From Balneolaceae bacterium (lineage in GTDB: Bacteria; Bacteroidota; Rhodothermia; Balneolales; Balneolaceae): DNA of 64,000 nucleotides. Shown in pieces: positions 16,587-33,175 of the stretch (its first letter is position 1; every line of letters begins with the position of its first letter). The stretch spans positions 434,001 to 498,000 of the forward strand of contig CP030887.1 of the NCBI GenBank assembly GCA_006969905.1, given 5' to 3'. The notes below the pieces were generated by a model, which did no database searches, had not been told where the DNA came from, and saw only the letters and a list, made by a program, of their open reading frames with translations. The translations under genes and the position numbers were made by a program.

Positions 16587-17222
16587 TTGAAACTGGCACT
16601 TATTCAACCTCAATTTGCTCCTAATCTATATGACCTTTCTGCTATGCTGAAAGCAGGCCGGGTTATACTTTTGGATACAGATACCTGGTCAAGAAAAGGG
16701 AGAACGCATCGTGCGAAAATACGGAATGAAGAAGGGACTCAGTGGATCAACATCCCTGTCAAAACGGAAGACAAAGGCAAAGCTATCAACCGGGTAAGAA
16801 TCGATCATTCCGAAGCCTGGAAAGAACCCTTCTGGAATGGCATCCTCCATAATTACAGTACCGCAACTTATTTTGATTTTCTCCACGATGAATTACTGGC
16901 TGATTTTGAAACTGCTTCTGAATTTGAAAAGCTGATCGACTTTAATCTCTTCTTCTTTCAACGAATACTTACCTATTTGGAGCTTGATATATCCCAGGAG
17001 CTAAAAAGTGAAGTGGGAGAAACAGATGTAACCCAATCCATAGTTTACCAGGAATATCAATCCAAAAATTATATACGACAGTTTGAGAAATCCGAAATCG
17101 CTTTGACTAATCATCCGGTGTATAGACAAGTCCATCCGGGTTTTGAGAAAGGTTGTTCGGTGCTGGACCTACTGCTTAACTATGGCCCTGAGAGCTTTGA
17201 AGTACTTGAGCAAGTTTATTAA
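16587..17222 (+). CDS. WbqC family protein
   Basis: About 211 residues. The typical WbqC opening KLALIQPQFAPNLYDLSAML is followed by DTWSRKGRTHRAKIRN and NWINIPVK-like segments (here TQWINIPVKTED), and the internal HSEAWKEPFWNGILHNY. WbqC proteins occur in polysaccharide or O-antigen clusters and resemble predicted glycine or amino-acid transferases; the reaction is not established. Start is uncertain: no ATG fits, TTG at 16587 gives the usual MKLAL start, and TTG at 16572 would add five residues. A stop lies immediately before 16572. It ends 4 bp into the convergent DASS gene. Confidence 0.83.
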   Translation: MKLALIQPQFAPNLYDLSAMLKAGRVILLDTDTWSRKGRTHRAKIRNEEGTQWINIPVKTEDKGKAINRVRIDHSEAWKEPFWNGILHNYSTATYFDFLHDELLADFETASEFEKLIDFNLFFFQRILTYLELDISQELKSEVGETDVTQSIVYQEYQSKNYIRQFEKSEIALTNHPVYRQVHPGFEKGCSVLDLLLNYGPESFEVLEQVY

Positions 17223-18685
17223 CCAATTGCCCAAGAAGGTATTTCACCTAATTCGATACCAAAAACCCAACTAAATAAGGTTAGTGAAGCAACAGATAGC
17301 AAAATAATGAATACTAAATTCAACCATAAACCAGCTTTGGACATTTCGGGAATTGTAATTTTACCACTTCCATAAATAATAGCATTTGGGGGAGTCGCTA
17401 CCGGAAGCATGAAAGCACAACTGGCCCCAAAAACAGCAGGAATGGCTAACAGCAGTGGGTTTTCTCCTAATCCAATAGCAACGGATGCCAAAATAGGAAG
17501 AAAGGCTGCTGTTGAAGCTGTGTTGCTAGTCATTTCCGTCAGAAAAACCATTAGCCCAACAACAATAAAAATAATGAGTACAATCGGCCAGGTGTTCAAA
17601 CTACCAATTCCTGCACCAATCCAGGTAGCAAGCCCGGTGCTACTTATAGCTGATGCCATACTCAAGCCCCCCCCAAAAAGAATCAATACCCCCCAGGGCA
17701 ACTTTATTGTATCTGACCAAACCAATAGCCCTCCACCTTTCTTTGATGGGATTAAGAATAAAGCTACTGAGGCTGCGATTGCGATACCTGCATCTGAAAG
17801 GCCCGGCAAAAAATTAACAAGTAATGGCCGGAATATCCAAGACAAAGCTGCAATTACAAAAACAGCCGCAACTTTCTTCTCCTGAGAAGATATCTTAGTA
17901 AGTTCCTTAACCTGAGCCTGAATAATTTCTTTGCCACCTGGAAGTGTTTCTATTCTAACAGGATATACAAGCTTAGTTAAAATAAAGTACATAGTCGGTA
18001 AAGAAATAAGCATACAAGGGACTCCAACCATCATCCACTGCATAAAACTTATTTCTATCCCGTAATTTTCAAATAGAAAAGCTGCCAATAATGCATTTGG
18101 AGGTGTACCTATAAGTGTACCCATCCCTCCAATATTACATGCATAAGCGATGCATAATATTAAGACGATCTCGAAATTTATCTTCTTGCCACTTTCTTTA
18201 TTATCTAACAAGTCTAGTATGGATACTGCTATAGGTAGCATCATTATTGCTGTAGCCGTATTGCTTACCCACATACTTAAAAATGCAGATGCAATAATAA
18301 AGCCGATTATTATTGAGGAAGGATTAACCCCTACTAAGCTTACTATACCAATGGCAACTCTTTTATGCAGTTGCCATTTTTGCATGGCTATTGCCAATAT
18401 AAAACCACCCATAAATAGAAAAATAAGTGGATTGGCATACGGCGAAGTAGACTCTGAAACCGAAATTATCCCCAGGATTGGAAATAGAACAATCGGTAAT
18501 AATGCTGTGACTGAAATAGGTATTGCTTCAGAAATCCACCAAATACCCATTAATAAAGTAACTGCTGCCGTCTTCCATGCTGCCTCGGATAAGCCTTCCG
18601 GAACAGGTAATAACAGTATAACTACAAATACTAAAAGCCCTGCAACAAGCCCAAAATGCCTGGTATAAGAAAAAACGCCTTTCAT
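17219..18685 (-). CDS. DASS (SLC13) family sodium:dicarboxylate-type symporter
   Basis: About 488 residues, 11-13 hydrophobic helices. Family motifs include TVTLLMGIWWISEAIP-like (here AVTLLMGIWWISEAIPI), NTATAIMMLP, GGMGTLIGTPPNAL and a repeat-2 counterpart TSNTASTAAFLP with PVATPPNAIIYGSG; the paired SNT motifs form the sodium/carboxylate site. Substrates in the family are succinate, citrate, sulfate and related anions. ATG at 18685 is preferred; a TTG at 18700 would overlap the stop of the upstream lyase-like gene and add five residues. Last gene of the sugar locus, so it may import an acidic sugar product or export an end product (inference). Confidence 0.87.
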   Translation of the reverse strand: MKGVFSYTRHFGLVAGLLVFVVILLLPVPEGLSEAAWKTAAVTLLMGIWWISEAIPISVTALLPIVLFPILGIISVSESTSPYANPLIFLFMGGFILAIAMQKWQLHKRVAIGIVSLVGVNPSSIIIGFIIASAFLSMWVSNTATAIMMLPIAVSILDLLDNKESGKKINFEIVLILCIAYACNIGGMGTLIGTPPNALLAAFLFENYGIEISFMQWMMVGVPCMLISLPTMYFILTKLVYPVRIETLPGGKEIIQAQVKELTKISSQEKKVAAVFVIAALSWIFRPLLVNFLPGLSDAGIAIAASVALFLIPSKKGGGLLVWSDTIKLPWGVLILFGGGLSMASAISSTGLATWIGAGIGSLNTWPIVLIIFIVVGLMVFLTEMTSNTASTAAFLPILASVAIGLGENPLLLAIPAVFGASCAFMLPVATPPNAIIYGSGKITIPEMSKAGLWLNLVFIILLSVASLTLFSWVFGIELGEIPSWAIG

Positions 18686-18696
18686 CGAATGAACAG

Positions 18697-21399
18697 TCAA
18701 TTTTCGATGGTATAACCTTCTTCAGCCATCCAGTATTCTAAATATGGGATGTTATAAATACTTGTCCAGCCAAAAATCCTCAAGCCGTTAGTGATCTTCC
18801 ATATTGCGGGCCTGAAACCACTCTCGCTTTCAGGAAGATTACTCACTTCTTCTAATGCATCTGCCAGAAAGCGTTGGTTTTCATAGGAATCAAATTCCTG
18901 AGGTAACTCGTCTGTTTTCAGATGCCTTGCTCTTTTTATAGCTTCATCAAGCAAACTTTTTTTCCGGGAAAACTCATAGCCAAGAACCAGGCTACTGATA
19001 GAAGAAAGGTAGGATTCCATACTATGGTTCATGGGAGGAACATCCCGAACTCTTATTGCATGATCAATTACTGCTTTTCTAACTTGCTCATCTCTGGTAA
19101 GTTGATAATACCGTCTCAGACCATTTGATACATACACCTGTGCATAGCCATATCTATCTATAATCATGGATCCCGCCTGATCCGGGTGATTTTGAAGCTG
19201 CAGCATAATATGCACACGGTCTTCCAATTCATCGAAATACTTCTCGATTTTAGTTGCATCATAAATCTCAGCAAGGTTCCAAATTGAAAGATAGAGCCTG
19301 CGACCTGTTAATCCATGATCACCAAATACTCTTTTCAAATAATAATTACCTGCTTCTTTAGCCACTTCTAAGCCCCTGTGATTTGCATCCAGGTAATAAG
19401 ATGATAACCAACCTGCCACCCAAACATGGGCACTTAACAGCGATGTGTAATGTTGGTCGGCATGTCTTCTTCCCATTCCTACATATGGGGAGCCCTTTGG
19501 TTTATCCGCAACCTGAAAAGCATGGATGGACTCATTAGTGTCACCGATATAAACAGGGTCTTTAGGCCAGTGAATATTATCCACATCCATAGTATGCTTA
19601 CTTACAGCCCTTGCAGTTTTATAATACATCGGATTGCCTGTACGTACAAATTGAAGCCACCACATATAATCAGTAGCAGGCTCATTATTAGTCCATTGTA
19701 TCCAATCATCTCTATAGTAATAGGTCATATAATCACCGTAATTGAGCATGCCATACCAGGGTTCCCAATTTTGATTAAACTTCATCCACTGGAGTTTATA
19801 ATCCAAGCCTCTTTCAAAAACAGCATATTTATTCATACTTGGAGCCATTTTTCCAAAAGCTTCGGAAGAAGCATACCACTCAGGTGCAGCGTGGGTTACC
19901 GGAGGCTCCATAAAGGCGGTAATTCCCTTATCAATATCTATATCTGTACTTTTTGAATGAAAATTAATCACCAACTCTGTGGTTTTTGCAAGTCCCTGAG
20001 CAAAGTTCGCAATCATCCCACTGTCGTTGTCACTGTCTTTTCTGGCAAAGCTCATGGGTTCAACAGAAGGTGTCCATATATAGGCTGTAACCTTGTTTTG
20101 ACTGTCTTCTACTTTAATCTCTTTAGGGTATTCTTCGAAAAAGCTTTGGAACCCAATCGTCACGCCCCACTTTTCATCAGATATATCTATCCAGCCCGGT
20201 ACACGCTCTTTTGATAGCTTTTCTCCATTTGGTGACATTATAGTAGAAGTAAATACCTCTTCTAGCCTTTCATCTGCTGAAGAGTTTTCCAGAGGTGGTA
20301 TTTGTGAAGGATTGGGGCCCGTTTGGAGAATAGAAAAATCAGCTCCATTTTTGAGCTCGGTATTAATAATTACACTTTCTCCCGGAGAGTGCCATTTCCC
20401 TTCATAGTAAGCGGAGCTCACACTTGCATTCTCTGAAAGATTATAATTTAATGCCAGCCCTGTTGCCGCAATTCTATCATTTGGTTGTGTAAATCCTGTA
20501 TCCTTTTGAAGTATGGTCTCATCAACAACTTTGCCATTTTTAGTTGCAATAGCTTCGTACTCGCCTGATTGTTTTTTGTGTTTATCAGGTACACCCGTGT
20601 AAACAAATGTATGTTCTACTTTGATGTAGCTTTTTCCGGCATATGCATGAATCCGTGTTACAAAAGGGGCTGTATTGTTATCATCATTTGAGTAATGATA
20701 TTCACCTTCAACCCGGATAATAGCGTAAAGAGGACCTGTCCCCTTTTCCTTAAGCGTTCGTGTAACTACTGCTTTTGATCGATCTAATCCAGCGTCATCC
20801 AATAAATCCAAAAAAGAAGCTCTTCCAGGCTCCCCAGTCGCAATTATATCTTCTTCATCAAACCCATTACCATCAATATCCAATTCTACTTTATCTATAA
20901 ACCCGCTTCCTGCCGGTGAATTAAAAAAACCGCCGCCTTCACCTTTTTCAACAGTAAATCTCATAGGACCCGTATTCACTTCCACTTCGCCATTATTTCG
21001 CTGATTATTTTTGATGGTCAATTTTTGATCGTATAGTCTTCCATTGCGAACATCCGACCCATATTCTACCTCATAGTTATCCCCTTCTTCTGTAAAAAAG
21101 AAAATCCATAACCATTTTATACTATTATCGATAGGCTCCCATGTTGTCACTTCTGTGATCTGTGAAGGAATTTCATGTCCCTTACTATTTAAAACCCGTA
21201 CATGATCAGGTGAAAATAGCTCCCCTTGAGGAATAGGTATACCAAAAACCTGAGGTGAACCCGCTATATTATTTTTGACTGTGATCGGTATTTGTTTTTC
21301 AGAGCCTGGTATTCCACACCCTGCAAAAAAAAAGGAGAGGATCAATAAACCAGTAGCTGTTTGAGAAAATATTTTTTTCAAGATATTCATGGCCTTCAT
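18697..21399 (-). CDS. RIFT-barrel/(alpha/alpha)-toroid lipoprotein, exo-rhamnogalacturonan-lyase (YetA)-like
   Basis: 900 residues. Lipoprotein signal ending at Cys28 (FFFAGC). The N-terminal part (about 35-320) resembles the RIFT-barrel domain of the YetA/PL26 exo-rhamnogalacturonan lyase group (VFGIPIPQGELFSPDHVRVL, WEPIDNSIKWLWIFF). The central and C-terminal parts (about 500-890) look like an (alpha/alpha) toroid rich in Trp/Tyr/His, with WEPWYGMLNYGDYMTYYYRD and GMGRRHADQHY. Family assignment is from memory; enzymatic activity is not shown. It starts inside the ROK kinase stop (ATGA) and ends at the DASS start, so it is translationally coupled to both. In this locus it is the only candidate glycan-cleaving enzyme, presumably surface or periplasm facing. 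Confidence 0.68.
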   Translation of the reverse strand: MKAMNILKKIFSQTATGLLILSFFFAGCGIPGSEKQIPITVKNNIAGSPQVFGIPIPQGELFSPDHVRVLNSKGHEIPSQITEVTTWEPIDNSIKWLWIFFFTEEGDNYEVEYGSDVRNGRLYDQKLTIKNNQRNNGEVEVNTGPMRFTVEKGEGGGFFNSPAGSGFIDKVELDIDGNGFDEEDIIATGEPGRASFLDLLDDAGLDRSKAVVTRTLKEKGTGPLYAIIRVEGEYHYSNDDNNTAPFVTRIHAYAGKSYIKVEHTFVYTGVPDKHKKQSGEYEAIATKNGKVVDETILQKDTGFTQPNDRIAATGLALNYNLSENASVSSAYYEGKWHSPGESVIINTELKNGADFSILQTGPNPSQIPPLENSSADERLEEVFTSTIMSPNGEKLSKERVPGWIDISDEKWGVTIGFQSFFEEYPKEIKVEDSQNKVTAYIWTPSVEPMSFARKDSDNDSGMIANFAQGLAKTTELVINFHSKSTDIDIDKGITAFMEPPVTHAAPEWYASSEAFGKMAPSMNKYAVFERGLDYKLQWMKFNQNWEPWYGMLNYGDYMTYYYRDDWIQWTNNEPATDYMWWLQFVRTGNPMYYKTARAVSKHTMDVDNIHWPKDPVYIGDTNESIHAFQVADKPKGSPYVGMGRRHADQHYTSLLSAHVWVAGWLSSYYLDANHRGLEVAKEAGNYYLKRVFGDHGLTGRRLYLSIWNLAEIYDATKIEKYFDELEDRVHIMLQLQNHPDQAGSMIIDRYGYAQVYVSNGLRRYYQLTRDEQVRKAVIDHAIRVRDVPPMNHSMESYLSSISSLVLGYEFSRKKSLLDEAIKRARHLKTDELPQEFDSYENQRFLADALEEVSNLPESESGFRPAIWKITNGLRIFGWTSIYNIPYLEYWMAEEGYTIEN

Positions 21400-22262
21400 T
21401 CTTGGTTTACAGGTGTGTCTTTATCAAGCGAGAGTGCAGCAGCTCCCAATACGGCAACCTGATCTAATTCTGAAATACGTATTTTCAGGTTTTCAAGAGA
21501 TTTCGGGTAGGCAAAATCAGCCATTGCAGTATGCATAGCCTTTTTAAAAAAACGGTAGGCATCTTTAACAGATCCACCCAGAATAATCATACCAGGATCG
21601 TAGGCATAGATAACAGCTTTCATTGCATTACCAAGATGGGTGCCAAACTCCTGATACATAGCTACTGCATTTTCACTTCCCTGTTTTGCTGCTTCAAATA
21701 CTTGCTGTCCATTTAATTTTTTATGTATCTCGAAAAACTGGCCAGAACAATATTCTTCGAAAATGGAGTCTTTGTAAGGAAGCATACCTACTTCACCAGC
21801 TCCACAATTTTCCCCGGAAACCAAGCTTCCATTCATTACTAGGCCGGCTCCAAAACCGGTTCCCAAAATCAACCCAACTATTGACTTCTCATAGATACCC
21901 TGGCCAAAATACTTTTCCCCGAGCACAAAACAGTTGGCATCATTATTTATGAAAACCAGCACTTTAAATTCTCTTTCTAGTATTTCTTTAAGGGGTATAG
22001 CTTCCCAGGAGGGTATATTTTGCACGTTATAAACAATCCCCTTTTCGGGATCTACTACACTTGGGACGCCAATACCTATCCCTTGAACCTTTTCTGTGAT
22101 TACAGAAGCTATCATTCTCTTAACCTGATCAATCAGATTATCCGGTTTGTTGGAATGTGCTATGGCTTCACTACTAAGCACTACTATCTCTCCATCTTCA
22201 ATCCGGGCAACTCTTACATTTGTTGCTCCTAAATCAATCCCTATAAGACAGGTATTCTTCAC
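21396..22262 (-). CDS. ROK family sugar kinase lacking the zinc motif
   Basis: 288 residues with an N-terminal phosphate-binding GIDLGATNVRVARI, catalytic Asp108 in INNDANCFVLGE, and the second phosphate motif ILGTGFGAGLV. Substrates of ROK kinases include glucose, N-acetylglucosamine and N-acetylmannosamine. The family's ExGH and CxCGxxGCxE zinc region is altered: the sequence reads GEVGMLPYKDSIFEEYCSG, so the sugar- and zinc-contacting His is Met160 and the cysteine cluster is deleted. GTG start at 22262 overlaps the MFS stop (GTGA). With nagB and deacetylases nearby, a glucosamine-type substrate is plausible (inference). Confidence 0.88.
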   Translation of the reverse strand: MKNTCLIGIDLGATNVRVARIEDGEIVVLSSEAIAHSNKPDNLIDQVKRMIASVITEKVQGIGIGVPSVVDPEKGIVYNVQNIPSWEAIPLKEILEREFKVLVFINNDANCFVLGEKYFGQGIYEKSIVGLILGTGFGAGLVMNGSLVSGENCGAGEVGMLPYKDSIFEEYCSGQFFEIHKKLNGQQVFEAAKQGSENAVAMYQEFGTHLGNAMKAVIYAYDPGMIILGGSVKDAYRFFKKAMHTAMADFAYPKSLENLKIRISELDQVAVLGAAALSLDKDTPVNQE

Positions 22263-23512
22263 TTAGATTCTTGCTTTTTACTAAAATCAATCGTCTTATT
22301 ACCTATCAGAGGTTTTGCCCAAAAACCAATACTTAGAATGTAGCCGAAAGTGATATATAGAAATATCATGCCTCCCCGAAGGCCAACAACATCACCCAAA
22401 GCACCAACTATGAGTGGGACAATTGCCCCCCCTGCTATACCTGTGACCAGTATTCCTGAAAAAGAACCGTGGTGTTCAGAAACGGAATTAAGTGCCAAAG
22501 AAAATATAATAGGCCACATCACGGCTATGAAAAACCCGATAGCCGGAAACATATAAATAGCCAGACCGCCACTACCAAAAAGAGCCACGGTAAAACAAAG
22601 GATTACAATAGATGTAAACAGGATCAGTACTTTTTTGCTGTCCATTATTTTGAGTAGTAACAGCCCTAGCAATGTACCTGCTGTCATCATGCCCCAGAAC
22701 CATGATACGGTAGAAGCACCTATTGTTTGGGGATCATATCCATGATAAGTTGAAAGAAATTCAGAAATCCAGTTTGCTACACCCTGTTCCGTACCTACAT
22801 AACAAAAAATTCCTAAAAAGAAGAGAATTACTTTTTTGTCTTTTAACAGCTCTAAATGTGTTTCAAGAGCGCCTACAAGCTCGTCTTCATTTTTTGTTAC
22901 AACCGGAAATTTAGAAACCCCAATAATAACAACCATCATCAATGATACCAGAGCAAATAACCAGTAAAGTGATACCCAGGGAAGGTTTTCCGGCACCAAA
23001 GCAGTCAGAGTAGCTATAATAAAATTTGAATCATCACTTCCGACATTCAATACCAAATAAGAGTAAACCAGAGGGCTTAAAAAGGAAGCGAGTCCAAAAA
23101 ATAATTGACCTATTACTGAATTAAATGCAAAGTTTTCTTCTCCACCCGAAACCCTAAGTAAAGGATTAATTGCCACCTGAAGCATAGCCATTCCCGTGCC
23201 TATCAAAAACAAGGAAATAACTGCAATATGGTACATAGGGAACAATGAAAAAAGAAGTGCCCCGGAAAATGCTACAAGAAAAGCGGTAATCATTATATTC
23301 TTTTCACCATATCTTTCAATGAGCATTCCTGAAGGAATTGACATAACGCCATAGGCGATAAAAAATGCAAAGGGAAGCAACGCAACAAGTGTAAGACTTA
23401 AGTTAAAGTCTTCAATAATCTGGGGTACCAGTGGCCCAATGATATTTGTCAAGAAAGAGATGACAAAAAACGTCAGTATTATAAGGCCAACCAGATAGTA
23501 ATTCCTTTTCAT
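22259..23512 (-). CDS. MFS transporter, probable sugar importer (FHS/FucP-like)
   Basis: 417 residues, 12 hydrophobic helices. The first-half signature between helices 2 and 3 is GMLIERYGEKNIMI, and a glycine-rich helix AISLFLIGTGMAMLQVAINPLLRVSGG recalls the NagP/FucP sugar:proton symporters. It overlaps the ROK kinase by 4 bp and follows the PIG-L gene by 35 bp, so it most likely brings the deacetylated or released sugar into the cell for that kinase. Substrate unproven. Confidence 0.87.
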   Translation of the reverse strand: MKRNYYLVGLIILTFFVISFLTNIIGPLVPQIIEDFNLSLTLVALLPFAFFIAYGVMSIPSGMLIERYGEKNIMITAFLVAFSGALLFSLFPMYHIAVISLFLIGTGMAMLQVAINPLLRVSGGEENFAFNSVIGQLFFGLASFLSPLVYSYLVLNVGSDDSNFIIATLTALVPENLPWVSLYWLFALVSLMMVVIIGVSKFPVVTKNEDELVGALETHLELLKDKKVILFFLGIFCYVGTEQGVANWISEFLSTYHGYDPQTIGASTVSWFWGMMTAGTLLGLLLLKIMDSKKVLILFTSIVILCFTVALFGSGGLAIYMFPAIGFFIAVMWPIIFSLALNSVSEHHGSFSGILVTGIAGGAIVPLIVGALGDVVGLRGGMIFLYITFGYILSIGFWAKPLIGNKTIDFSKKQESK

Positions 23513-23547: not shown

Positions 23548-24453
23548 TTAGTTCTTTCTGAACATTGGAAAAAGTTCTCTTATTTCTTTTTCTGTGGGCT
23601 GTTTGCCGTATTCACAAATCTCAAAAGATTCTGCATAGCGAAATTTTGCTGCTTGTTCTTTTCCGTACCACTTTTCAAGGCCCGCTCTTTGTTCATCTGA
23701 AACTGTCATTCTGCCAATGAAGCCCTTTCTCAAAAAATCTTTCCTGGCTTCGGGGTCATCTGGTACCTTATCCAGGTTACCGGATACCCAAGGCAACCAT
23801 TCATACACCTGGGATTCATGTGCGTCAAAGGCATTTACCTTCTTTTCAAATGTTTCATCAATACCTACTACAATATCATGGCTGAATGGATTGGGCTTTT
23901 GAAAACCATCTGCCATATATAAGAAAACAGGGTTTTTCCTGAGAGGAGGTGTATCTGGTGTTACATTGGGTACAACTACCATGTAGGCCGCATCCTGAAC
24001 AAGTACACCTGCATATCTGTGATCCGGGTGATAATCGTTCGGGCGCAGGCCTAACACGATATCAGCATTCCAGCTTCTTATTTCCCGGATCACCTGCTGG
24101 CGTATGTGAAGCTCAGGCAAAAGTTCTCCGTCGTGGTTATCCAGAACTTTGTACTCGTCAATTCCAAGCCTTCTACCAGCTTCAGCAGCTTCGGCTCGTC
24201 TTCTTTTTGCCAGCATTCCACCGCCTTCTTTATGATGGCCAGCATCACCGTTTGTAATGGAAACGAATTTTACGGCGTACCCCATTTCGGCAAGTAAGGC
24301 GGCTGTACCACCCATTTTAGCATCGCCATCATCAGGATGAGCAAATATAGCTATTACTCTGATCCTGTCATCTTCTTCGGAAGTACCTTGAGAAAAAGAC
24401 GTTGTGAACAAAAAGATTGATATGATTATGAATAAACCTGTGAACTTTTTCAT
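23548..24453 (-). CDS. exported PIG-L family deacetylase (locus copy 1)
   Basis: 301 residues. Signal peptide (residues 1-21, TTSFSQ) then the LmbE/PIG-L fold. Zinc ligands are visible in AIFAHPDDGDAKMGG (His39, Asp41, Asp42) and LRPNDYHPDHRYAG, with conserved TNGDAGHH and RRRAEAAEAGRRLG. The family removes acetyl groups from N-acetylglucosamine-type residues. Being exported, it should act on the sugar before import. ATG at 24453 lies about 12 bp past the T tract of a terminator/attenuator that follows susD, so its expression may depend on readthrough. Followed by the MFS gene. Confidence 0.9.
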   Translation of the reverse strand: MKKFTGLFIIISIFLFTTSFSQGTSEEDDRIRVIAIFAHPDDGDAKMGGTAALLAEMGYAVKFVSITNGDAGHHKEGGGMLAKRRRAEAAEAGRRLGIDEYKVLDNHDGELLPELHIRQQVIREIRSWNADIVLGLRPNDYHPDHRYAGVLVQDAAYMVVVPNVTPDTPPLRKNPVFLYMADGFQKPNPFSHDIVVGIDETFEKKVNAFDAHESQVYEWLPWVSGNLDKVPDDPEARKDFLRKGFIGRMTVSDEQRAGLEKWYGKEQAAKFRYAESFEICEYGKQPTEKEIRELFPMFRKN

Positions 24454-24528: not shown

Positions 24529-25902
24529 TTATTGGTGTTCTGGATTTTGAGTCATTTCATCAGGAGAAACATCAATTGCTCCCTGGGGTATTGGGAATAG
24601 GAGTGTGACCTGCGATTCTGGAATTCCCAAATGGGCGGCCATCACTTCTTTTGCAGTACCGAATCTTTTAAGGTCTGCCCATCTTTTATTCTCAAATGCA
24701 AATTCAACTCTTCGTTCATGAAGTAGTTTTTCCTCAAAGGTTCCTGGTGTAAGAGCACTTATATCTCCAAGGCCTGCCCGGTTACGAACTTCGTTGATGA
24801 GATCATAAGCTTCGAGCCCTTCTCCTAGCACTTCTGCAAGATTTAATAAGACCTCAGCATATCTGATTTCCATCCAGTTATTGTCACCGTCGAATGCAAC
24901 TGTTGGGCTACTAATAAACTTTCTAACCCAAGGATCAATTTCAGAATCTGATGTATCAATGGTTGCGTCAAATCGCTCATCACCTGCTTCATACATAGTT
25001 AGTACTTCATCGGTAACATCCTGAGGAGCACCACCACCACCTACGTTACCTCCCACACCAAGTGGGGTATATAAGTCAGTGTATGCACTACCCTCACCAA
25101 TGTTGCCCCCAACAAACTCTATTTCAAAAATCGACTCTGAGTTTCCTTCATTATCAGATCCCCATAAGTTTGCGTAATCGGAAACTAAAGAATATTGATT
25201 TGATGCGATGACTCTTCGTAATGGAGCCTCGGCTGCGGATGGGTTGCCATTAGCAAGATGTACTCTTCCAGCTAAGGCAGCAGCAGCCCATTTTGTAATT
25301 CTTCCATCCTCGGACAAAAGGCTTTCGGCTTCAGTAAGATCCGTAATTGCCTGGGCATATATATCAGATGCTGTAACCTGGTTAACAACTATATCAGGTG
25401 TGGTTACCTCATCAAGTTGCAATGGAACATTTCCGAAAATAACTGCCATGTGATAATATAGAAGTGCACGAATAAATAGTGCTTCTCCTTTTATCTGAGA
25501 ACGAACTGACTCTTCATTAAAATCAGCATTATCAATTCTTGCAATAATGTTGTTAGTGCTTGCAATTACGTTATATACAGCGTCATACGTAGCTGCAATC
25601 TCTTCACCATCCGGTAATTCATCAAAGATATCAAGCTGTTCTAAACTCTGAGCTAAACCTGTTGCACCACCACCGTTAGCACCGTTGTCAGCTCTCATTT
25701 CCATAAAAAGAATGATATTAACTCCAAAAACCTCTCTTCTTTGCAAGCCATCCAATGATCCTCGAATAGCCAGTTCAAAGTCCGTTTGGTTTTTATAAAA
25801 GTTATTTACATTTCTTTCTGTTAATGGACCTAAATCCGTAAAATTATCCCCACAAGAAATAAATAAGAGGGGAATGAAAGCAGTCAAAATTAATTTTTTC
25901 AT
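24529..25902 (-). CDS. SusD/RagB family outer-membrane glycan-binding lipoprotein
   Basis: About 457 residues from the ATG at 25902, which has a strong AGGAG six bases upstream; an in-frame ATG 36 bp earlier is unlikely. Lipoprotein signal ends at FISCGDNF. SusD features are the N-terminal LTERNVNNFYKNQTDFELAIRGSLDG, TPR-like helices in the middle (EALFIRALLYYHMAVIFGNVPL) and the C-terminal NEVRNRAGLGD, LLHERRVEFAFENKRWADLKR and LFPIPQGAID block. It would lie on the cell surface as the lid of the SusC channel. It starts 26 bp after the SusC stop. Confidence 0.95.
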   Translation of the reverse strand: MKKLILTAFIPLLFISCGDNFTDLGPLTERNVNNFYKNQTDFELAIRGSLDGLQRREVFGVNIILFMEMRADNGANGGGATGLAQSLEQLDIFDELPDGEEIAATYDAVYNVIASTNNIIARIDNADFNEESVRSQIKGEALFIRALLYYHMAVIFGNVPLQLDEVTTPDIVVNQVTASDIYAQAITDLTEAESLLSEDGRITKWAAAALAGRVHLANGNPSAAEAPLRRVIASNQYSLVSDYANLWGSDNEGNSESIFEIEFVGGNIGEGSAYTDLYTPLGVGGNVGGGGAPQDVTDEVLTMYEAGDERFDATIDTSDSEIDPWVRKFISSPTVAFDGDNNWMEIRYAEVLLNLAEVLGEGLEAYDLINEVRNRAGLGDISALTPGTFEEKLLHERRVEFAFENKRWADLKRFGTAKEVMAAHLGIPESQVTLLFPIPQGAIDVSPDEMTQNPEHQ

Positions 25903-25927
25903 AATGTCTCCTGTTAAATGTGGGATA

Positions 25928-28900
25928 TTAAAATTCAAGGTTTATACCCAGTTGAATGGTTCTTGCGAGGGGGTATGCTCCGTAGTCTTCACCAGGAGTT
26001 AAGCTATTTGAAGCTTGTAGATTAACCTCGGGGTTAAAGCCAATGTAATCTGTAAATATGGCCAGGTTTGTAGCAGAAGCATATATCCTTGCTTTTGAAG
26101 CAAAGTTTCCAAGCTTTTCAACCGGTAAATTATAACCGATTTGAACATTCTTAATACTCACATAGCTACCATCCTGAACCTGATAAGAGGAAGGGCGGTT
26201 ATTATTACCATGTGTGCCTGTACTTCTATCCGCTCTTGGATGTTCGCCATTTCCCGGATCGCTTTCAGATCGCCATCTGTTATTTAATACAGCATAGGCA
26301 TTAAAGTTAGCCTCTCCGTTAAGCAAGTGGCGAGATGTAAGATTTAATACTTCTCTACCCACTACACCTTGTATAAATACGCTTAAATCGAAGTTTTTAT
26401 AATTAAAACGATTCGTAATACCATATGTGAAATCCGGCTGATAATTACCTAGTATGGTTCGGTCATCAGCATTAATTACACCATCACCATTTACATCTTT
26501 AAATCTGAAATCACCTGGTTTTGGTGCCGGAGCTAATGCATCAGCGGGTGCAGCATCAATCTCAGCCTGATTTTGGTAGATTCCTTCTACCACATATCCG
26601 TAATAACTTCCTACAGCGGATCCTATCTGAGTAATGTGTCGTACACCAGCAGCACCCGAAACTAAAATCGGATCGCCATTAGGACCTAATTTATTAACCT
26701 GATTTCTATTGGTCGCCATATTGAAATCAGTCGACCATTGAAAATCTCTTTCTACAATATTTCTGGAAGTGATAGAAAACTCAAAACCTTCATTTTCAAC
26801 TTCACCAATATTTGTAAGCACACTATTAAAACCAGTAGAAGGAGGTACATTTACCGACAGTAATAGATCTTTGGTAGTAGTAAAGTAATAATCCATACTA
26901 CCATATATCCTATCGCTTAACAGAGCATAATCAATACCAAGATTGGTTTGATAGCTGGTCTCCCAAGAAAGTTCGCTGTCACCTAAAGTAGCCAATGATG
27001 ATCCTGGAAATACTACCCCATCTTCGGGATAAGTAACACTAGCCAGTCGACTTACAGAACTATAGTTGCCAATCTCAAAATTACCGGCAACACCATAACT
27101 TGCTCTCAATTTCAACTCGCTAAATATATTCATGTCTTCCATGAACGACTCTTCACTCAATCTCCAGCCAAGCGAGGCAGAAGGAAAAATCCCTGTTTGA
27201 TTATCCGAACCAAATCTAGAAGCACGATCTGATCGTATCGTAGCAGTAACCAAATATTTACCCTGATAGGAATAATTTACCCTTGCTAGCGCAGAAACAA
27301 GGGCCCATTCTGATTCATTTACTCCCCCACCTGTTACAATACCACCTGCAACGTTTGGTACCTGATCATCAACGAAACCCTGGGCAATTACAATGTTTAC
27401 TTCATTTTTTTGCTTTTGTGCTGTGTACCCTGCTAAAACACTTACTCTATGATCTTCATTGAAAACAGTTTCATAATTGATGGTATTTTCCCAAAGCCAG
27501 TTAAATCCATTTGCACCACTAGACTGTGCAAAAGGCTGGGGTGATGTTTGGTTTCTGTATAAAAACTTTGTACCCCTGTAAAATGAAGATTGGTAATCGT
27601 CTAAATCATATCCTAACAGTGATTTAAATGTGATATTCTCATTAATATTTACCGTACCATAAAGGCTACCATATAAACGATTATTGTTAATTTCTTCGCT
27701 TATAAATCTTTGAATCGCTAGTGGGTTACTTGCCGTGGTAGTACCTCCACCCAAATGAGATTGATTATTTAACTGATTAATGGTTCCATCTGTATTAAAT
27801 GGCGATACTACAGGTGAGTGCACTAAAGCAGAGTATATGATACCCGGAGGTTGTCCAAAATAGGGCGCATTAGCTGGCAATCTATCGTGCTGAGAAAGTG
27901 CTGCATTTGTAACAGAGCCTACTTTTACTTTATCTGTTATATCATATGTAACGTTTGCCCTGAAATTATACCTGGTAAATGATGATCCATCGATAATACC
28001 TTCCTGATCCAGAAAACCACCAGATAAGAAATAAGTAGCCCGGTCAGTTCCACCACTGGCAGATATATGGTAATTTTGTTGACTTGAAGAGCTCAACACT
28101 AAATCTAACCAATCTGTATCTGTACCATCCCAATTTATATAAGATTCAGGAATCAGGAAGTTTCCAATGTCTGGCCGACCGGCATTTGTATTTGGATCAT
28201 AAAGTGGATTTGCAGGTTGGTTGCCTCTTTCAATTTCCTGCAGGTAATTATTGTTTCTTGCATCTTTTGTGTATGCAATTAATTCTTCAGCATTCATCAT
28301 ATCAGGCTTATTAACTACCGATGAAGCTCCACCAAACATGTTTACAGTTACCCGGTTTATACCACGACTCCCTTTTTTAGTGGTAACCAAAATTACACCC
28401 CCCGCTCCGCGAGAACCGTAAATAGCTGCTGAAGAAGCGTCCTTTAATACATCAATAGCTTCAATATCATTGGGGTTTAATGAACTGAATGCATTTGACC
28501 TAGGAGCTTGAAATGATCCTCTCTGAGACTGAATATCAACTTGTAAGTCAGAGTTTCTTGATAAAGGAATCCCATCAATTACGTAAAGCGGACTATTACC
28601 TGCCGTAATAGAACCTCCCCCGCGAATGGTGATTTCCGGACTTGCACCAGGTTCTCCGGTTGGTTCTACAACATTTACCCCTGCCAACCTGCCCTGAAGT
28701 GCATTTTCAAAGCTTGATACCGGAATGTTTTGGATATCCCCGGTACGTATAGAAGCAATAGAACCGGTCACCTCCGTACGTTGCTGTGTACCATAACCAA
28801 CTACTATTATATCATCGAATGTTACCAGATCAGGCATTAAAGTAATATTAAAGACAGTCTGGCCATTTATGGGTACCTCTTGTGTTACATAACCAATAAA

Positions 28901-29506
28901 CTGGATAACCAAAATTTCTGCATCATCAGGAATTGTAAGTTCAAAAGTTCCATCAACTTCTGTATTAGTACCTATATAAGTACCTTTTACAAAAACATTT
29001 GCAGAAGGCACCGGCTCGTTAGTTAACCCATCAACAACCGTACCTCTTATTTCGATATTTGCTACATTTTTATTTTCAGGCGAAACAGGAGCTTTTTTAA
29101 TAAGAACAATCTCCCTGTTTTTGGAAATAGCGACTTCATAATCGGTGCCAAGCATTACTATTTGCAGGGCATTGCCAACAGTAATATCCTTAGCTTTTAC
29201 GTCAATTTTCTTGTCAAGAATATCCAGCTTGGAATTGAAAGCTATTCCAAGTTTTGCTTTCTTTGCTATATCTCTGAGTACACTGCCAAGCCTTACATTT
29301 TTTTCTTCAATTGATACAATACTTTGTAGTTCAGGGATTAAATCTGAATAATCATTCACCGAATAGTATAGATTTGACTGTAAACTGTTCGAAGCTGATG
29401 TAATAAGCTGTGCATTCGCAACTAAACTGCTCGCATTAAACGCAAAAACGGTTAGTATAAAATAAGAGGTTATTTTCCTCAATAATTTTGTAGCTGTAAC
29501 TTCCAT
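25928..29506 (-). CDS. SusC/RagA TonB-linked receptor with STN signalling domain
   Basis: About 1192 residues. Signal peptide (ends near SLVANAQ), STN domain (about 60-130, LGSVLRDIAKKAKLGIAFNS, SKNREIVLIKK), CarboxypepD-like domain (about 145-225, IRGTVVDGLTNEPVPSANV), TonB box/plug (DDIIVVGYGTQQRTEVTGSI), SusC motif EAIDVLKDASSAAIYGSRG, and a barrel ending GINLEF. ATG 29506 has AGGA seven bases upstream and is preferred over ATG 29518. The STN domain is what FecA-type transducers use to signal to a FecR anti-sigma factor, and such a pair is encoded just upstream. It imports glycan fragments with SusD. Confidence 0.96.
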   Translation of the reverse strand: MEVTATKLLRKITSYFILTVFAFNASSLVANAQLITSASNSLQSNLYYSVNDYSDLIPELQSIVSIEEKNVRLGSVLRDIAKKAKLGIAFNSKLDILDKKIDVKAKDITVGNALQIVMLGTDYEVAISKNREIVLIKKAPVSPENKNVANIEIRGTVVDGLTNEPVPSANVFVKGTYIGTNTEVDGTFELTIPDDAEILVIQFIGYVTQEVPINGQTVFNITLMPDLVTFDDIIVVGYGTQQRTEVTGSIASIRTGDIQNIPVSSFENALQGRLAGVNVVEPTGEPGASPEITIRGGGSITAGNSPLYVIDGIPLSRNSDLQVDIQSQRGSFQAPRSNAFSSLNPNDIEAIDVLKDASSAAIYGSRGAGGVILVTTKKGSRGINRVTVNMFGGASSVVNKPDMMNAEELIAYTKDARNNNYLQEIERGNQPANPLYDPNTNAGRPDIGNFLIPESYINWDGTDTDWLDLVLSSSSQQNYHISASGGTDRATYFLSGGFLDQEGIIDGSSFTRYNFRANVTYDITDKVKVGSVTNAALSQHDRLPANAPYFGQPPGIIYSALVHSPVVSPFNTDGTINQLNNQSHLGGGTTTASNPLAIQRFISEEINNNRLYGSLYGTVNINENITFKSLLGYDLDDYQSSFYRGTKFLYRNQTSPQPFAQSSGANGFNWLWENTINYETVFNEDHRVSVLAGYTAQKQKNEVNIVIAQGFVDDQVPNVAGGIVTGGGVNESEWALVSALARVNYSYQGKYLVTATIRSDRASRFGSDNQTGIFPSASLGWRLSEESFMEDMNIFSELKLRASYGVAGNFEIGNYSSVSRLASVTYPEDGVVFPGSSLATLGDSELSWETSYQTNLGIDYALLSDRIYGSMDYYFTTTKDLLLSVNVPPSTGFNSVLTNIGEVENEGFEFSITSRNIVERDFQWSTDFNMATNRNQVNKLGPNGDPILVSGAAGVRHITQIGSAVGSYYGYVVEGIYQNQAEIDAAPADALAPAPKPGDFRFKDVNGDGVINADDRTILGNYQPDFTYGITNRFNYKNFDLSVFIQGVVGREVLNLTSRHLLNGEANFNAYAVLNNRWRSESDPGNGEHPRADRSTGTHGNNNRPSSYQVQDGSYVSIKNVQIGYNLPVEKLGNFASKARIYASATNLAIFTDYIGFNPEVNLQASNSLTPGEDYGAYPLARTIQLGINLEF

Positions 29507-29605
29507 ATATGTCCTCATTTGCTGGTTAGTATTAACTCCACTGATCGCTAAAAAGCGCTTCCATATTCATTTCGAATTATTCATTGTTTTCTAAAATCAT
29601 TGCTG

Positions 29606-30673
29606 TTATTGGGTCGACTTGCTGATACCGAACCGAACTGTATCCCGTTCAATTTTGTACGTAAGTCCCAAAGACATAGAAATTGTCTCCAGAACATTTT
29701 CAAGCATCCTGCTTTTAAATTCGGCTGTTAACTGAAGTTCACTCACTTCCGGGTTTTCAAAACTGACAGTTATATCATACTTACGCTCTAGCTGCCTTTT
29801 GACTTCTGCCATAGGAGCTTGATAGAATTTCAAATACCCATCTTTCCAGCTTAGGTATAAATCCAGATTGTTTACTTGCTGGGTGCTGATGGTTTTTTCT
29901 TTGATATCAAAACTGCCAAGCTTACCCGCCGTCAGAATAACTCCGTCATCAATCCCTTTACCCTCACCCCGAAAGGAAACCACCCCCTCCTCAACCACTG
30001 TTCGAACTTCATTATCTTCGGGAAAAGATCGAATGGCAAAAGATGTACCCAGCACTTCTACCACAGATCCCCTCGTATAAATAACAAATGGTTTATTTGG
30101 GTTTTTAGCTACATCGAAATAAGCTTCACCTTCCAGGTATACTTCCCTTATATCCGGTTTAAATACGCTGGGAATCCTGATTTTACTTTCTGAGTTGAGT
30201 GTTACTTTAGTGCCATCAGAAAGTGTCATAGAACCTCTCAATCCTTTTTTCATCGAGATGCTTTTCAATATCGGTTCCGGCGTAACCTCTTCACTTGTCA
30301 AAAATTGATTAGCATAAATGCCTATAGAAACCGCAATTATAAAAATTGCAGCTATTCGCGCTAAAAAAAGAAGGTTTTTACGTTTTCTGTTTTTACTTCG
30401 TAAATCGAAAATTTTACCCGATTGATCACAATCATCCTCAATTCTGCTTTGAAGAACGGCCCAATCCAACTCAACATCAAAGTTCTCATCCATACTTTTG
30501 AACTCCGGAGAAAGCTCCCATATCTTTTTGAGGTCTTCCATTAATCTCCTATTCTCTTCATTTTCAGCCAACCATTGCTGAACTGATTTTGATTCTTCAG
30601 GTGTACATTCAGAAGCCAGATATCTGGCCAATAATTTGCTCTTCAATTCCGGTATTTTATGATGTTCTTTCAC
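29606..30673 (-). CDS. FecR-family anti-sigma factor
   Basis: 355 residues. N-terminal cytoplasmic anti-sigma domain (ARYLASECTPEESKSVQQWLAENEENRRLME), one membrane helix (about 104-124, LLFLARIAAIFIIAVSIGIYA region), then the periplasmic FecR domain (KGLRGSMTLSDGTKVTLNSES, EVYLEGEAYFDVAKNPNKPF) and a C-terminal DUF4974-like end (LYLSWKDGYLKFYQAPMAEV). It starts with GTG at 30673, 47 bp after the sigma gene, and precedes susC by about 100 bp. Expected to hold the ECF sigma factor until SusC reports substrate. Confidence 0.94.
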   Translation of the reverse strand: MKEHHKIPELKSKLLARYLASECTPEESKSVQQWLAENEENRRLMEDLKKIWELSPEFKSMDENFDVELDWAVLQSRIEDDCDQSGKIFDLRSKNRKRKNLLFLARIAAIFIIAVSIGIYANQFLTSEEVTPEPILKSISMKKGLRGSMTLSDGTKVTLNSESKIRIPSVFKPDIREVYLEGEAYFDVAKNPNKPFVIYTRGSVVEVLGTSFAIRSFPEDNEVRTVVEEGVVSFRGEGKGIDDGVILTAGKLGSFDIKEKTISTQQVNNLDLYLSWKDGYLKFYQAPMAEVKRQLERKYDITVSFENPEVSELQLTAEFKSRMLENVLETISMSLGLTYKIERDTVRFGISKSTQ

Positions 30674-30720: not shown

Positions 30721-31332
30721 TTATTTAAAATCTTCTGAACTTATTTTCTCACGGATATATTTAATAGCCTGCCCAATATGGTTTTCTACTGTTTTTTTAG
30801 AAATACCCAATACTTTAGATATTTCTTCATAGCTAAAGCCATGTCGTCTGTTGAGTTCAAACGAGATGCGTCTTCGTTCCGGCATTTCTTCAACCAGTTC
30901 CCAGATTCTCTTTAGTTGCCTGATTTCTAGTTCAGTGAGATTGCCATATAAGGTTTCATCTTGTTTGAGTTCTCTATTATGGCTTTCGACTTCACTCTGA
31001 TAATTCTTTTTTAGTCTTAGAAGAGCTTTTTTCTTTTCTAAAAGGTTTAATGCCTGGTTTCTGACTGCCTGGTATAAATATACTTTTATGGAGTAGTGAA
31101 GCTCCCAATCCTCCCGGTTTCTCCAAATTTTAAGAAATACATCCTGGACAGTATCTCTCGCTAATTCTTTTGATTTGGTGATGGTATTGGCAAATCGGAT
31201 AAGTTTATTATGGTACTCAAAGAAAAGCTTTTCGAATGCAGCTTTATCTCCTGAACGTATTTTGCGCACTTTAAGGAAGTCATCTTCCTTTCCCCCATTA
31301 TTAGTATTATCTATATGTGCAAAAAGCAACAT
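30721..31332 (-). CDS. ECF RNA polymerase sigma factor
   Basis: 203 residues. Sigma region 2 (AAFEKLFFEYHNKLIRFANTITKS, ARDTVQDVFLKIWRNR) and region 4 (EMPERRRISFELNRRHGFSYEEISKVLGISKKTVENHI) with the helix-turn-helix are clear. It lacks region 3, as ECF factors do. The order sigma-FecR-SusC(STN)-SusD is the standard regulatory arrangement in FCB glycan loci. A hairpin at 31462-31490 separates it from the upstream nagB/PIG-L unit, so it probably has its own promoter in 31333-31461. Confidence 0.94.
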   Translation of the reverse strand: MLLFAHIDNTNNGGKEDDFLKVRKIRSGDKAAFEKLFFEYHNKLIRFANTITKSKELARDTVQDVFLKIWRNREDWELHYSIKVYLYQAVRNQALNLLEKKKALLRLKKNYQSEVESHNRELKQDETLYGNLTELEIRQLKRIWELVEEMPERRRISFELNRRHGFSYEEISKVLGISKKTVENHIGQAIKYIREKISSEDFK

Positions 31333-31461
31333 TTACTAATCACTGCATCTTAAGTACCTTTTTTAATAATACTTATATAGTCCTCATTTCATGCCTTATC
31401 CTGATGTAATTAACATATGCTGAACATCAAAAGCACACTTTAAAACCTCAACCTTCAAAAG

Positions 31462-31490: not shown

Positions 31491-31500
31491 TCAACATGAA

Positions 31501-32370
31501 TTAATCATTATTTGAAAACCCCGGGCCACTACCTGCCCCGTCCGGTGCACCCATTCGGTATCGAAACTGCTCTGTAGTTCCTACCCGGTTTTTTATTCGT
31601 TCAATAAACCGTTGCCGCTCTTCATCTGACAGGTCATCAAGAGTAGCAAATCGATCATCTGAATTACCAGGGTAATCTCCGGATAAAGAAGTAAACTGAC
31701 TCAAGTAAGCCATATTCGATTCCATTTTCTGTTCAATGTAGTCGGAAATATCTACCGTTACGTTTGGAGCTTCAGCTCCCCAGTACATGTATTCTCTAAT
31801 ACTTACTGGTTCTAATCCTTCTTGTATAACATGCTCTGGAAAAATGAGATGCCATTCCGCTGCTCTTGCAGCATCTACTGCTAAGTAGGCTGCTGCGCGG
31901 TGATCACTCTTATGCCATTTTACATATCTGTAACCGGGTTCAAAACTTATCAGAACGTCAGGCTGGATCTTCCTATACCACCAGACCATTCGCTTAACAA
32001 GTTCTTCCCGGTCTGCAAATTCTACCATCCCATCTGTATAACCAAGATTGATATAATTCTCCTCAGGAAGTCCTATAGCACGCATTGCATTAAGTTGTTC
32101 ATGTCGGCGAATTTTTTCGAGACGCTGACGTGTCATAGTCCGGTCTCTGGTACCCACATTTCCATTGGTAAGCAACATTATGTACACATTATTTCCATTT
32201 TCCTGGAGCATTGCCAAAGTTCCATGCCTTCCGGCATCATCATCAGGATGAGCCCCCACCAATAGTATAGTCCTTCCAGTCCATTCTTCAATGGGTGTCT
32301 CCGGCTGGGCCAAAACCAAAACCGGTAACACCAAAAAGACCATTAAAATCAAAGTGCTTTGTTTTTTCAT
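31501..32370 (-). CDS. exported PIG-L family deacetylase (locus copy 2)
   Basis: 289 residues with a signal peptide (ends near VLAQP) and the LmbE fold: LLVGAHPDDDAGRHGTLAML (His41, Asp43, Asp44) and WHKSDHRAAAYLAVDAAR supply the zinc ligands, and LTNGNVGTRDRTMTRQRLEKIRR is the usual following helix. It differs clearly from the deacetylase at 23548-24453, so it is a separate subfamily rather than a recent copy. It follows nagB by 40 bp. Presumed reaction is removal of N-acetyl from an amino sugar outside the cytoplasm; substrate unproven. Confidence 0.89.
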   Translation of the reverse strand: MKKQSTLILMVFLVLPVLVLAQPETPIEEWTGRTILLVGAHPDDDAGRHGTLAMLQENGNNVYIMLLTNGNVGTRDRTMTRQRLEKIRRHEQLNAMRAIGLPEENYINLGYTDGMVEFADREELVKRMVWWYRKIQPDVLISFEPGYRYVKWHKSDHRAAAYLAVDAARAAEWHLIFPEHVIQEGLEPVSIREYMYWGAEAPNVTVDISDYIEQKMESNMAYLSQFTSLSGDYPGNSDDRFATLDDLSDEERQRFIERIKNRVGTTEQFRYRMGAPDGAGSGPGFSNND

Positions 32371-32410
32371 ATTAGTCCTGTTTTTCGTTAATAGCTGTTG
32401 AGTGCTAATT

Positions 32411-33175
32411 TTAAATTCTATTGACTTGTATCTCGTTTTGAATCATTGCTGCTGCTGGTTCATCCAAAACCAACTCTAACTTTTTATTCCCCTGGAGAAA
32501 TGAGACTGGGCAATCACTGGAAACTTGTTGTAAAAATGACTTTGCAATGATTTCTGCTTTCTTTTCACCCCATGCCAGCAAATAGATTTTTTTTGCCTCC
32601 AAAATTGTTTTTATCCCCATGGTGATGGCTTTTTCAGGAACAGGTGATCCGTTAAAATGAATCTTAGCATCTTGTCTTGTAATATCTTCCAGGTATACTA
32701 GTCTTGTAATGGAATCAATACCTGATCCTGGTTCATTAAAGCCAACATGCCCTGTTCTGCCAATTCCGAGAATTTGAATATCAATCCCCCCGAAATCTGT
32801 AATCTTTTGCTCATAGCTTTTACAGTATTCATTTATTTCATGCTCAGCTATTGAACCATCCGGGATATGTATGTTTTGCGAAGGTATATCTACATGAGAA
32901 AAAAAATGATTATGCATGTAGCTGTGATAGCTCTTGCCTGAACTCCCACTCATAGGATAATACTCATCAAGGTTAAAAGAGACTACATTGCGAAAGCTTG
33001 TGCCAGCTTTATTCAGTCTTATAAGTTCATCATAAACAGGTTTTGGAGTGTTCCCGGTTGACAGTCCCAATATTGTTTGCCTATTAATAGCATTATTTTT
33101 CTGTATTACATCTGTAATGCTATTTGCAACATGTACCGATGCCATGTATGGATTTGGGAAAACACTCAATTCCAT
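32411..33175 (-). CDS. nagB: glucosamine-6-phosphate deaminase
   Basis: 254 residues, cytoplasmic; converts glucosamine-6-phosphate to fructose-6-phosphate and ammonia. Motifs: phosphate loop GLSTGNTPKPVYDEL, catalytic base in FNLDEY (Asp70), and GIGRTGHVGFNEPGS (His143, Glu148). The residue matching E. coli Asp141 is Thr, which I recall as common in FCB enzymes. There is no nagA (N-acetylglucosamine-6-phosphate deacetylase) nearby; exported PIG-L enzymes may replace it. First gene of the minus-strand locus; the divergent neighbour is a symporter unit. Confidence 0.93.
   Translation of the reverse strand: MELSVFPNPYMASVHVANSITDVIQKNNAINRQTILGLSTGNTPKPVYDELIRLNKAGTSFRNVVSFNLDEYYPMSGSSGKSYHSYMHNHFFSHVDIPSQNIHIPDGSIAEHEINEYCKSYEQKITDFGGIDIQILGIGRTGHVGFNEPGSGIDSITRLVYLEDITRQDAKIHFNGSPVPEKAITMGIKTILEAKKIYLLAWGEKKAEIIAKSFLQQVSSDCPVSFLQGNKKLELVLDEPAAAMIQNEIQVNRI

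Follow-up and report, generated by a model that had tools for sequence, protein, structure and literature searches.

Does an amino sugar lose its acetyl group before or after import when the genes for its use include nagB and no nagA? This question is raised by a locus in the genome of a Balneolaceae bacterium (GTDB lineage Bacteria; Bacteroidota; Rhodothermia; Balneolales; Balneolaceae; assembly GCA_006969905.1; one contig of 3.49 Mb, 99.77% complete). The window, which here means the whole stretch of DNA analyzed, comprises 64,000 nucleotides, positions 434,001 to 498,000 of contig CP030887.1. Between window positions 17219 and 33175 lie eleven open genes, all on the minus strand, in the transcription order nagB, PIGL2, ECF sigma, FecR, SusC, SusD, PIGL1, MFS, ROK, RGL, and DASS. 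RGL is our shorthand for the gene, and the protein, of the PcRGLX-like lipoprotein at 18697 to 21399, which resembles polysaccharide lyase family 26 (PL26).

We consider it reasonably probable that these genes form a polysaccharide or oligosaccharide utilization locus for an N-acetylhexosamine glycan, probably one that also contains uronic acid, and that deacetylation takes place outside the cytoplasm before import, with no need for NagA, the N-acetylglucosamine (GlcNAc)-6-phosphate deacetylase. SusC and SusD would bring glycan fragments into the periplasm under the control of the ECF sigma/FecR pair. There the exported PIG-L enzymes would take off the N-acetyl group, and the PL26-like lipoprotein would cleave the deacetylated fragment. 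The MFS carrier would import the free hexosamine, which the ROK kinase would phosphorylate and NagB would then deaminate; the DASS carrier may import an acidic lyase product. Gene content and order, motif conservation, the genome-wide absence of nagA, and the decay of a cytoplasmic PIG-L domain were computed. From these we infer the substrate, the order of deacetylation and cleavage, the lyase chemistry, the cargoes of the MFS, ROK, and DASS proteins, and the cellular locations.

Two exported-looking PIG-L proteins

PIGL1 (23548 to 24453; Pfam PIG-L, 87 bits) and PIGL2 (31501 to 32370; 83 bits) belong to the PIG-L (CE14/LmbE-type) family, and for both the best sequence matches were LmbE-type deacetylases. 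In LmbE-like enzymes the HXD1D2 + H motif supplies two metal-binding histidines, a general base (D1), and a metal ligand (D2) (PMC4101496), and the metal triad of Pyrococcus Dac is His40-Asp43-His151 (PMC9779004). (Papers are cited by PubMed Central number.) HPDD and HPDH were kept in 65 of 65 rows of PIGL1, which thus has the HXD1D2 + H motif of the LmbE/PIG-L (CE14) deacetylases. PIGL2 of the window has HPDDD and HKSDH; PDD and HKxDH were kept in 17/17 rows, with His41 falling under the 95% threshold for listing.

An AlphaFold2 model of PIGL1 (pLDDT 89.9) matched the structures of BshB, LnmX, Dac, and MshB at Z scores of 21 to 24, and the best solved matches of PIGL2 were archaeal diacetylchitobiose deacetylases. 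Hydrophobic N termini, judged by a crude hydropathy and pattern test alone, were present in 77/77 PIGL1, 14/14 PIGL2, and 100/102 RGL proteins versus 0/19 NagB and 0/79 ROK proteins. PIGL1 and PIGL2 thus look like candidate deacetylases that are exported from the cytoplasm, and the signal-like N termini agree with the initial annotation, made from the DNA alone, which had called both proteins exported.

Longer proteins of 830 to 965 amino acids, related to the PIG-L protein of locus L101, take the place of the short PIGL1, or occur together with it, in L089, L101, L102, L107 (Pedobacter relatives), L133, L135, and L144. Those of 927 to 965 amino acids adjoin RGL in L144 (Acidobacteria) and in L133 and L135 (bins HR10 and HR08).

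Decay of the PIG-L domain in NagB proteins of the locus

NagB of the window (32411 to 33175) is a single-domain glucosamine-6-phosphate deaminase (TIGR00502, 238.6 bits; cut-off, 236.9). Its best NCBIfam match was NF002557, the fused NagB type, at 315 bits versus a cut-off of 384 and over the NagB half only; its identity to NagB-PIG-L fusions was 48 to 52%. The closest solved sequence was 2bkv, which we take to be B. subtilis NagB. NagB proteins of the window and five relatives have no PIG-L domain, and the six single-domain NagB proteins over the cut-off (in genomes G000, G002, G004, G006, G025, and G028) are all at this locus. In a midpoint-rooted NagB tree with long branches, loss of the PIG-L domain from the window NagB and its original lack could not be told apart.

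If deacetylation precedes import, a fused PIG-L domain in the cytoplasm should be superfluous to the NagB that serves the locus, and this was the rationale of our key test. Outside the locus, the PIG-L motif was intact in 48 of the 48 fusions read. HPDDD was kept in 22/22 fusions from the Balneolaceae, which are the retrieved part of all matching rows. It was also kept in 26/26 fusions from other locus-bearing genomes, where "outside" means not within the retrieved RGL locus, which leaves room for a fusion in the same region at over 10 kb from RGL (the third ligand of L210 lies outside the stretch read, and L223 is not in the count). Inside the locus, 7 of 15 distinct copies had lost catalytic or metal residues. 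Four have HPADD, with loss of the general base, and form one clade that includes Rhodohalobacter sulfatireducens; one has HPDND, with loss of a metal ligand; and two, which form one flavobacterial clade, have HPVDD with DPHSTQ, having lost both the general base and the third metal ligand. The L180 fusion has an intact motif by alignment.

Assignment to the two classes needed some decisions. L183, beside PIGL2 of locus L055, and L203, in which the fusion adjoins a PIGL1 gene and the PL26-like gene is on another contig, were counted as inside; L199 and L202 were counted as outside although they have PL26-like genes on other short contigs. Duplicates were counted once (L082 = L056; L070 = L148; L119 = L072). 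Fisher's test for damaged copies inside versus outside, which ignores relatedness, gave P = 6e-4.

In the seven genomes with both kinds of fusion, we divided the divergence of PIG-L by that of NagB, and in all 21 genome pairs this ratio was larger for the in-locus copies than for those outside (medians, 1.51 versus 0.71); these pairs share genomes and are thus not independent, and all are in the same direction. Across all usable pairs the ratio was 1.34 inside (104 pairs) versus 0.83 outside (227 pairs), and among in-locus copies with an intact motif it was 1.31 (28 pairs). These sequence comparisons suggest relaxed constraint on cytoplasmic deacetylation for the NagB that serves the locus. 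Cytoplasmic deacetylation there looks dispensable, and this fits deacetylation before import.

nagA and the NagB-PIG-L fusions

The initial annotation had reported no nagA at the locus. None was found in the whole window genome either (best TIGR00221 match, 33.8 bits; cut-off, 225.65), nor was there a match in any of the eight genomes of the genus. Across the family, nagA was over the cut-off in 4 of 92 genomes, and 10 of 92 had any TIGR00221 match at 1e-20; outside the family, 17 of the 21 locus-bearing genomes searched had no nagA match. Because nagA is rare across the whole family, its absence is family background, not a mark of this locus, and is weak evidence alone. Thus the absence that the initial annotation had relied on proved true of the genome but cannot carry the argument alone.

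The window genome encodes five PIG-L proteins. One of them (L064:8822-10741, near C1:2075000 of the genome itself) is a cytoplasmic NagB-PIG-L fusion of 639 amino acids, in which PIG-L is the C-terminal half and has an intact motif. It is unsafe to conclude from the absence of nagA alone that deacetylation comes first, because such a fusion is the obvious place for the missing GlcNAc-6-phosphate deacetylase. NagB was over the cut-off in 73 of 92 family genomes, each with at least one match in a frame of fusion length (500 to 703 amino acids, as read from the match table), and in fusion-length frames in all 21 of the locus-bearing genomes searched outside the family. Almost every Bacteroidota genome examined had a NagB-PIG-L fusion with an intact motif, and most of these genomes have no nagA. 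The sequences suggest that the fusion may be the GlcNAc-6-phosphate deacetylase of these Bacteroidota.

We also considered PIGL2 as a split-off part of such a fusion. This origin was rejected: PIGL2 matches the PIG-L segment of the fusion weakly (6.6e-5), and fusion and PIGL2 occur side by side in several loci.

The PL26-like lipoprotein and the substrate

No glycoside hydrolase (GH) domain was found in the eleven genes by Pfam and NCBIfam scans, so the initial annotation was right that none could be recognized there. The locus does, by family membership, encode a carbohydrate-active protein in RGL, which is likely the enzyme that cleaves the glycan and is a candidate exo-lyase. The three PcRGLX Pfam domains of RGL were over their cut-offs, and its model (pLDDT 88.3) matched PL26 over the whole length (Z score, 29.5; root mean square deviation, 3.0 Å; 711 residues aligned; 19% identity), giving a three-domain PL26 fold from end to end. 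Stretches common to RGL and PL26 are W-Y-G...Y-G-D and R-T-G...H-T-x-x-V-D-x-x-H. A lipobox-like signal was seen in 40 of 102 RGL proteins. More distant PL26-like proteins (22 to 26% identity) occur two in each of L062 and L063, without the rest of the locus.

A GH20 hexosaminidase is encoded elsewhere in the genome, and there was no sugar-uptake gene among its scanned neighbors. The genome also encodes a second GH20-like enzyme, one distant MFS relative at 28 to 30% identity, and a KdgA homologue; since KdgA is present, a uronate product could be used. A second sugar locus in the same genome (L161:77-19408, at C1:2556000-2575900) encodes GH2, GH20/GH67N-like, and GH88 proteins, a distant NagB-family protein, PfkB, and KdgA. 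As to the glycan itself, no recurrent neighbor gene decides among glycosyl inositol phosphoceramide head groups, hyaluronan, and heparosan as candidate substrates.

Classical ROK kinases have the motif E-x-G-H. The ROK kinase of the locus (21396 to 22262; Pfam ROK) has E-x-G-M, with M160 kept in at least 97% of 64 rows. The motif points away from plain glucose and does not name the sugar.

Spread and conservation of the locus

RGL relatives were found, at an E value of 1e-20, in 30 of the 92 genomes of the family (two of them distant) and, at 1e-100, in 21 of a sample of 394 from the phylum. The 131 candidate stretches with RGL relatives came from Flagellimonas, Allomuricauda, Maribacter, Pedobacter, KSB1, Caldithrix, Gemmatimonadetes, Acidobacteria, and others, and among them the closest relatives of the window locus are in Balneola and in Balneolaceae metagenome-assembled genomes. 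We examined 87 loci (80 of the 131 stretches and 7 others), of which the 57 that extend 5 kb or more to each side of RGL are the base for the counts that follow; many of the genomes are related, and the counts are therefore not independent. PIG-L was present in 56 loci, ROK, SusC, and SusD in 53 each, MFS in 52, FecR in 44, sigma in 42, DASS in 34, and NagB in 7. In all 56 the PIG-L gene was separate from NagB; its product had a hydrophobic N terminus in 52, and the locus boundary truncates the gene in the remaining 4. L149 is the sole locus without PIG-L, and its NagB match is weak (24% identity). Chance PIG-L neighbors should be rare because there are just 5 PIG-L genes in the 3.49 Mb of the window genome. 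The nagB gene directly follows rgl in KSB1 (L095 and L108), Caldithrix (L084), and Flavobacteriaceae (L130 and G182 [L192]).

The other genes of the locus

All the genes named in the initial annotation (nagB, two PIG-L genes with signal peptides, SusC/SusD, MFS, ROK, the RGL-like lipoprotein, and DASS) are present as open frames; what it had left out is the regulatory pair between the two PIG-L genes. This pair comprises an ECF sigma factor (30721 to 31332; TIGR02985 over the cut-off) and a FecR-type anti-sigma factor (29606 to 30673; Pfam FecR and FecR_C). Next come a SusC-type TonB-dependent outer-membrane transporter (25928 to 29518; TIGR04056, 897.5 bits) and a SusD-type lipoprotein (24529 to 25938; Pfam SusD_RagB and SusD-like_3). 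In translation, the true start of SusD is probably the ATG at 25902, which would give a lipobox-like FISC. The best NCBIfam match of SusD, NanU, was considered as a sign of sialic acid and dropped (72.9 bits; cut-off, 425). With SusC and SusD adjacent and PL26-like and PIG-L (CE14-like) carbohydrate-active proteins in the run, the genes have the makeup of a Bacteroidota SusC/SusD utilization locus.

The MFS sugar carrier (22259 to 23512) falls in the gluP/NagP/FucP group, under every cut-off (TIGR01272, 153.7 bits; cut-off, 202.55), and the DASS-family sodium/anion carrier (17219 to 18700) is over the cut-off for TIGR00785. MFS, ROK, RGL, and DASS are joined by successive 4-base overlaps, with the start of DASS set at a TTG.

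A gene for an SSF sodium/solute symporter (33493 to 35223) is the divergent neighbor of the window nagB, and in the genus loci L044 to L047 it adjoins nagB or PIGL2. SusC of L046 (4614-8199; genome G006) is in two frames of 792 and 450 amino acids, by frameshift or assembly error. An oxidoreductase-like protein of about 400 amino acids is encoded near PIGL1 or RGL in L086 (5338-6537), L099 (6611-7840), and L100 (8422-9633); in L099 a dinucleotide-binding GAGAFGG was seen by eye.

Competing explanations

Several observations weigh against deacetylation before import as the function of the locus. The seven lesions represent about three independent events, because the four HPADD and the two HPVDD copies each form one clade. 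A NagA-like match under the cut-off was present in two HPADD genomes, G067 and G068, and such an enzyme could cover for the lost PIG-L domain; the damaged-fusion genomes G065, G045, and G090 have no NagA-like match. Four of the 30 RGL-bearing family genomes match TIGR00221 at 1e-20 (G057 over the cut-off; G035, G067, and G068 under it), and nagA was over the cut-off in 4 of the 21 locus-bearing genomes outside the family. The locus of the same-genus genome G003 has no nagB, and the same-genus loci L044 to L047 have PIGL2 and no PIGL1. The crudeness of the test for signal peptides counts here as well. Lyase activity is something that we infer for this PL26-like subfamily, and a Pfam scan of chosen neighbors found no recurrent GH88 or GH105 gene.

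Could deacetylation instead be cytoplasmic? N-acetylhexosamine would then be imported and phosphorylated by ROK, the PIG-L half of the out-of-locus fusion would deacetylate it, and NagB would deaminate the product, while the exported PIG-L proteins would act on something else. The intact fusion of the window genome (L064) could indeed serve as a NagA substitute, a fusion is present in each of the 21 locus-bearing genomes searched beyond the family, 17 of which gave no match to nagA, and 8 of the 15 in-locus fusions keep the motif. We nevertheless judge this route unlikely: it is the in-locus copies that lose the PIG-L domain or its catalytic residues, which is the opposite of what it predicts, and a separate PIG-L gene is a near-constant partner of the PL26-like gene (56/57). 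A rather improbable possibility is that the glycan is rich in uronate, that PIG-L strips a decorating acetamide for the benefit of the PL26-like enzyme, and that the main carbon source is uronate taken up by DASS, with NagB a minor add-on. The PL26 fold, the presence of DASS in 34/57 loci, and the KdgA homologue elsewhere in the genome are in accord with it, as is the scarcity of NagB, found near just 7/57 loci (one of them, L149, by a weak match), although this is an undercount for Balneola, in which the 10-kb flank stops short of the NagB position. However, MFS (52/57) and ROK (53/57) are more constant than DASS, and several distant lineages have NagB as part of the run. This last point also argues against the PIG-L proteins being non-deacetylases in a locus that is not for amino sugars, an explanation that we regard as very improbable. 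The top structural match of PIGL1 was the same-fold hydratase GalB (Z score, 24.4), tied with the deacetylases, so fold alone is no proof of deacetylation; yet the best sequence matches of PIGL1 and PIGL2 are LmbE-type deacetylases, and the LmbE-like enzymes that had been characterized by 2014 have substrates built on a GlcNAc core or, in the case of two amidases, related conjugates (PMC4101496).

Deacetylation outside the cytoplasm, as the initial annotation had proposed, draws on the genome-wide lack of nagA, the exported-looking PIG-L proteins, the PIGL1 motif, and the loss of the PIG-L domain from in-locus NagB, and has against it the intact cytoplasmic fusion in the same genome; that annotation as a whole is partly supported. 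A wider proposal is more tentative. In a widespread system, exported PIG-L enzymes might de-N-acetylate a hexosamine-uronate glycan, and the PL26-like enzyme might then eliminate it to free hexosamine, carried by MFS, and unsaturated uronate, carried by DASS. On this view the fused PIG-L domain takes the place of NagA in Bacteroidota, as a GlcNAc-6-phosphate deacetylase attached to the deaminase, and this is why the NagB of the locus sheds it. If the reading favored here is right, Bacteroidota amino-sugar catabolism would have a second order of steps, with deacetylation ahead of import, and an unstudied PL26-like subfamily of several phyla would gain a function. Intact and decaying fusions in the same genomes would amount to a natural experiment and suggest a candidate for the GlcNAc-6-phosphate deacetylase of nagA-less Bacteroidota.

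Comparison with known systems

Among open-license papers, we found none on PIG-L/LmbE proteins with NagB, SusC, or utilization loci, nor any that describes the combination of exported PIG-L, PL26-like, ROK, and NagB proteins or a decaying fusion. The initial annotation likewise knew of no described pathway in this exact form. The general idea is not new: deacetylate-first use of amino sugars is already known in Thermococcus (PMC6566704), and periplasmic deacetylation has been predicted in Chitinispirillum (PMC4814513).

Compared with the classical NagA/NagB route for GlcNAc, the window genome has NagB and no nagA. The NagB-PIG-L fusion (NF002557, PRK02122) has the NagB half closest to the window NagB, which differs from it in having no fused PIG-L; PIGL2 resembles the PIG-L half only weakly. 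RGL has the full-length fold of PcRGLX, the PL26 exo-rhamnogalacturonan lyase of Penicillium, at 19% identity; it is part of a distinct subfamily in bacteria that goes with PIG-L genes.

Within the Bacteroidota, a term search of the main text of a Bacteroides thetaiotaomicron reconstruction found neither nagA nor nagB (PMC3878776). The ChiUL locus of Flavobacterium johnsoniae resembles the window locus in being of the SusC/SusD type, with an inner-membrane sugar transporter and nagB, but it has GH18 chitinases and GH20, and for NagK and NagA, encoded elsewhere, the prediction is that they work inside the cell (PMC5127042); the window locus has none of the four. In Chitinispirillum alkaliphilum, the genome-based prediction is that deacetylation occurs in the periplasm before glucosamine units are imported and that a kinase acts on glucosamine, as in our proposal. 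There, however, the enzymes go by the name of polysaccharide deacetylases, GH9 cuts the dimer inside after its import, and the annotation includes a GlcNAc-6-phosphate deacetylase, whereas the window has PIG-L and PL26-like proteins and no nagA.

In Thermococcus kodakarensis, Dac deacetylates diacetylchitobiose, and glucosamine is released afterwards by the exo-glucosaminidase GlmA. The likeness would be the deacetylation of GlcNAc glycans by a PIG-L (CE14) enzyme on the way to glucosamine; Dac sequences or structures are among the matches of both window PIG-L proteins, which are candidates for this step by homology. No GlmA-type enzyme is in the locus, to which this search was confined: the eleven genes have no glycoside hydrolase domain. 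The window locus differs from the Thermococcus system in its exported-looking PIG-L proteins, in SusC/SusD uptake, in a PL26-like enzyme in place of GlmA, and in the ROK kinase and NagB that would act afterwards.

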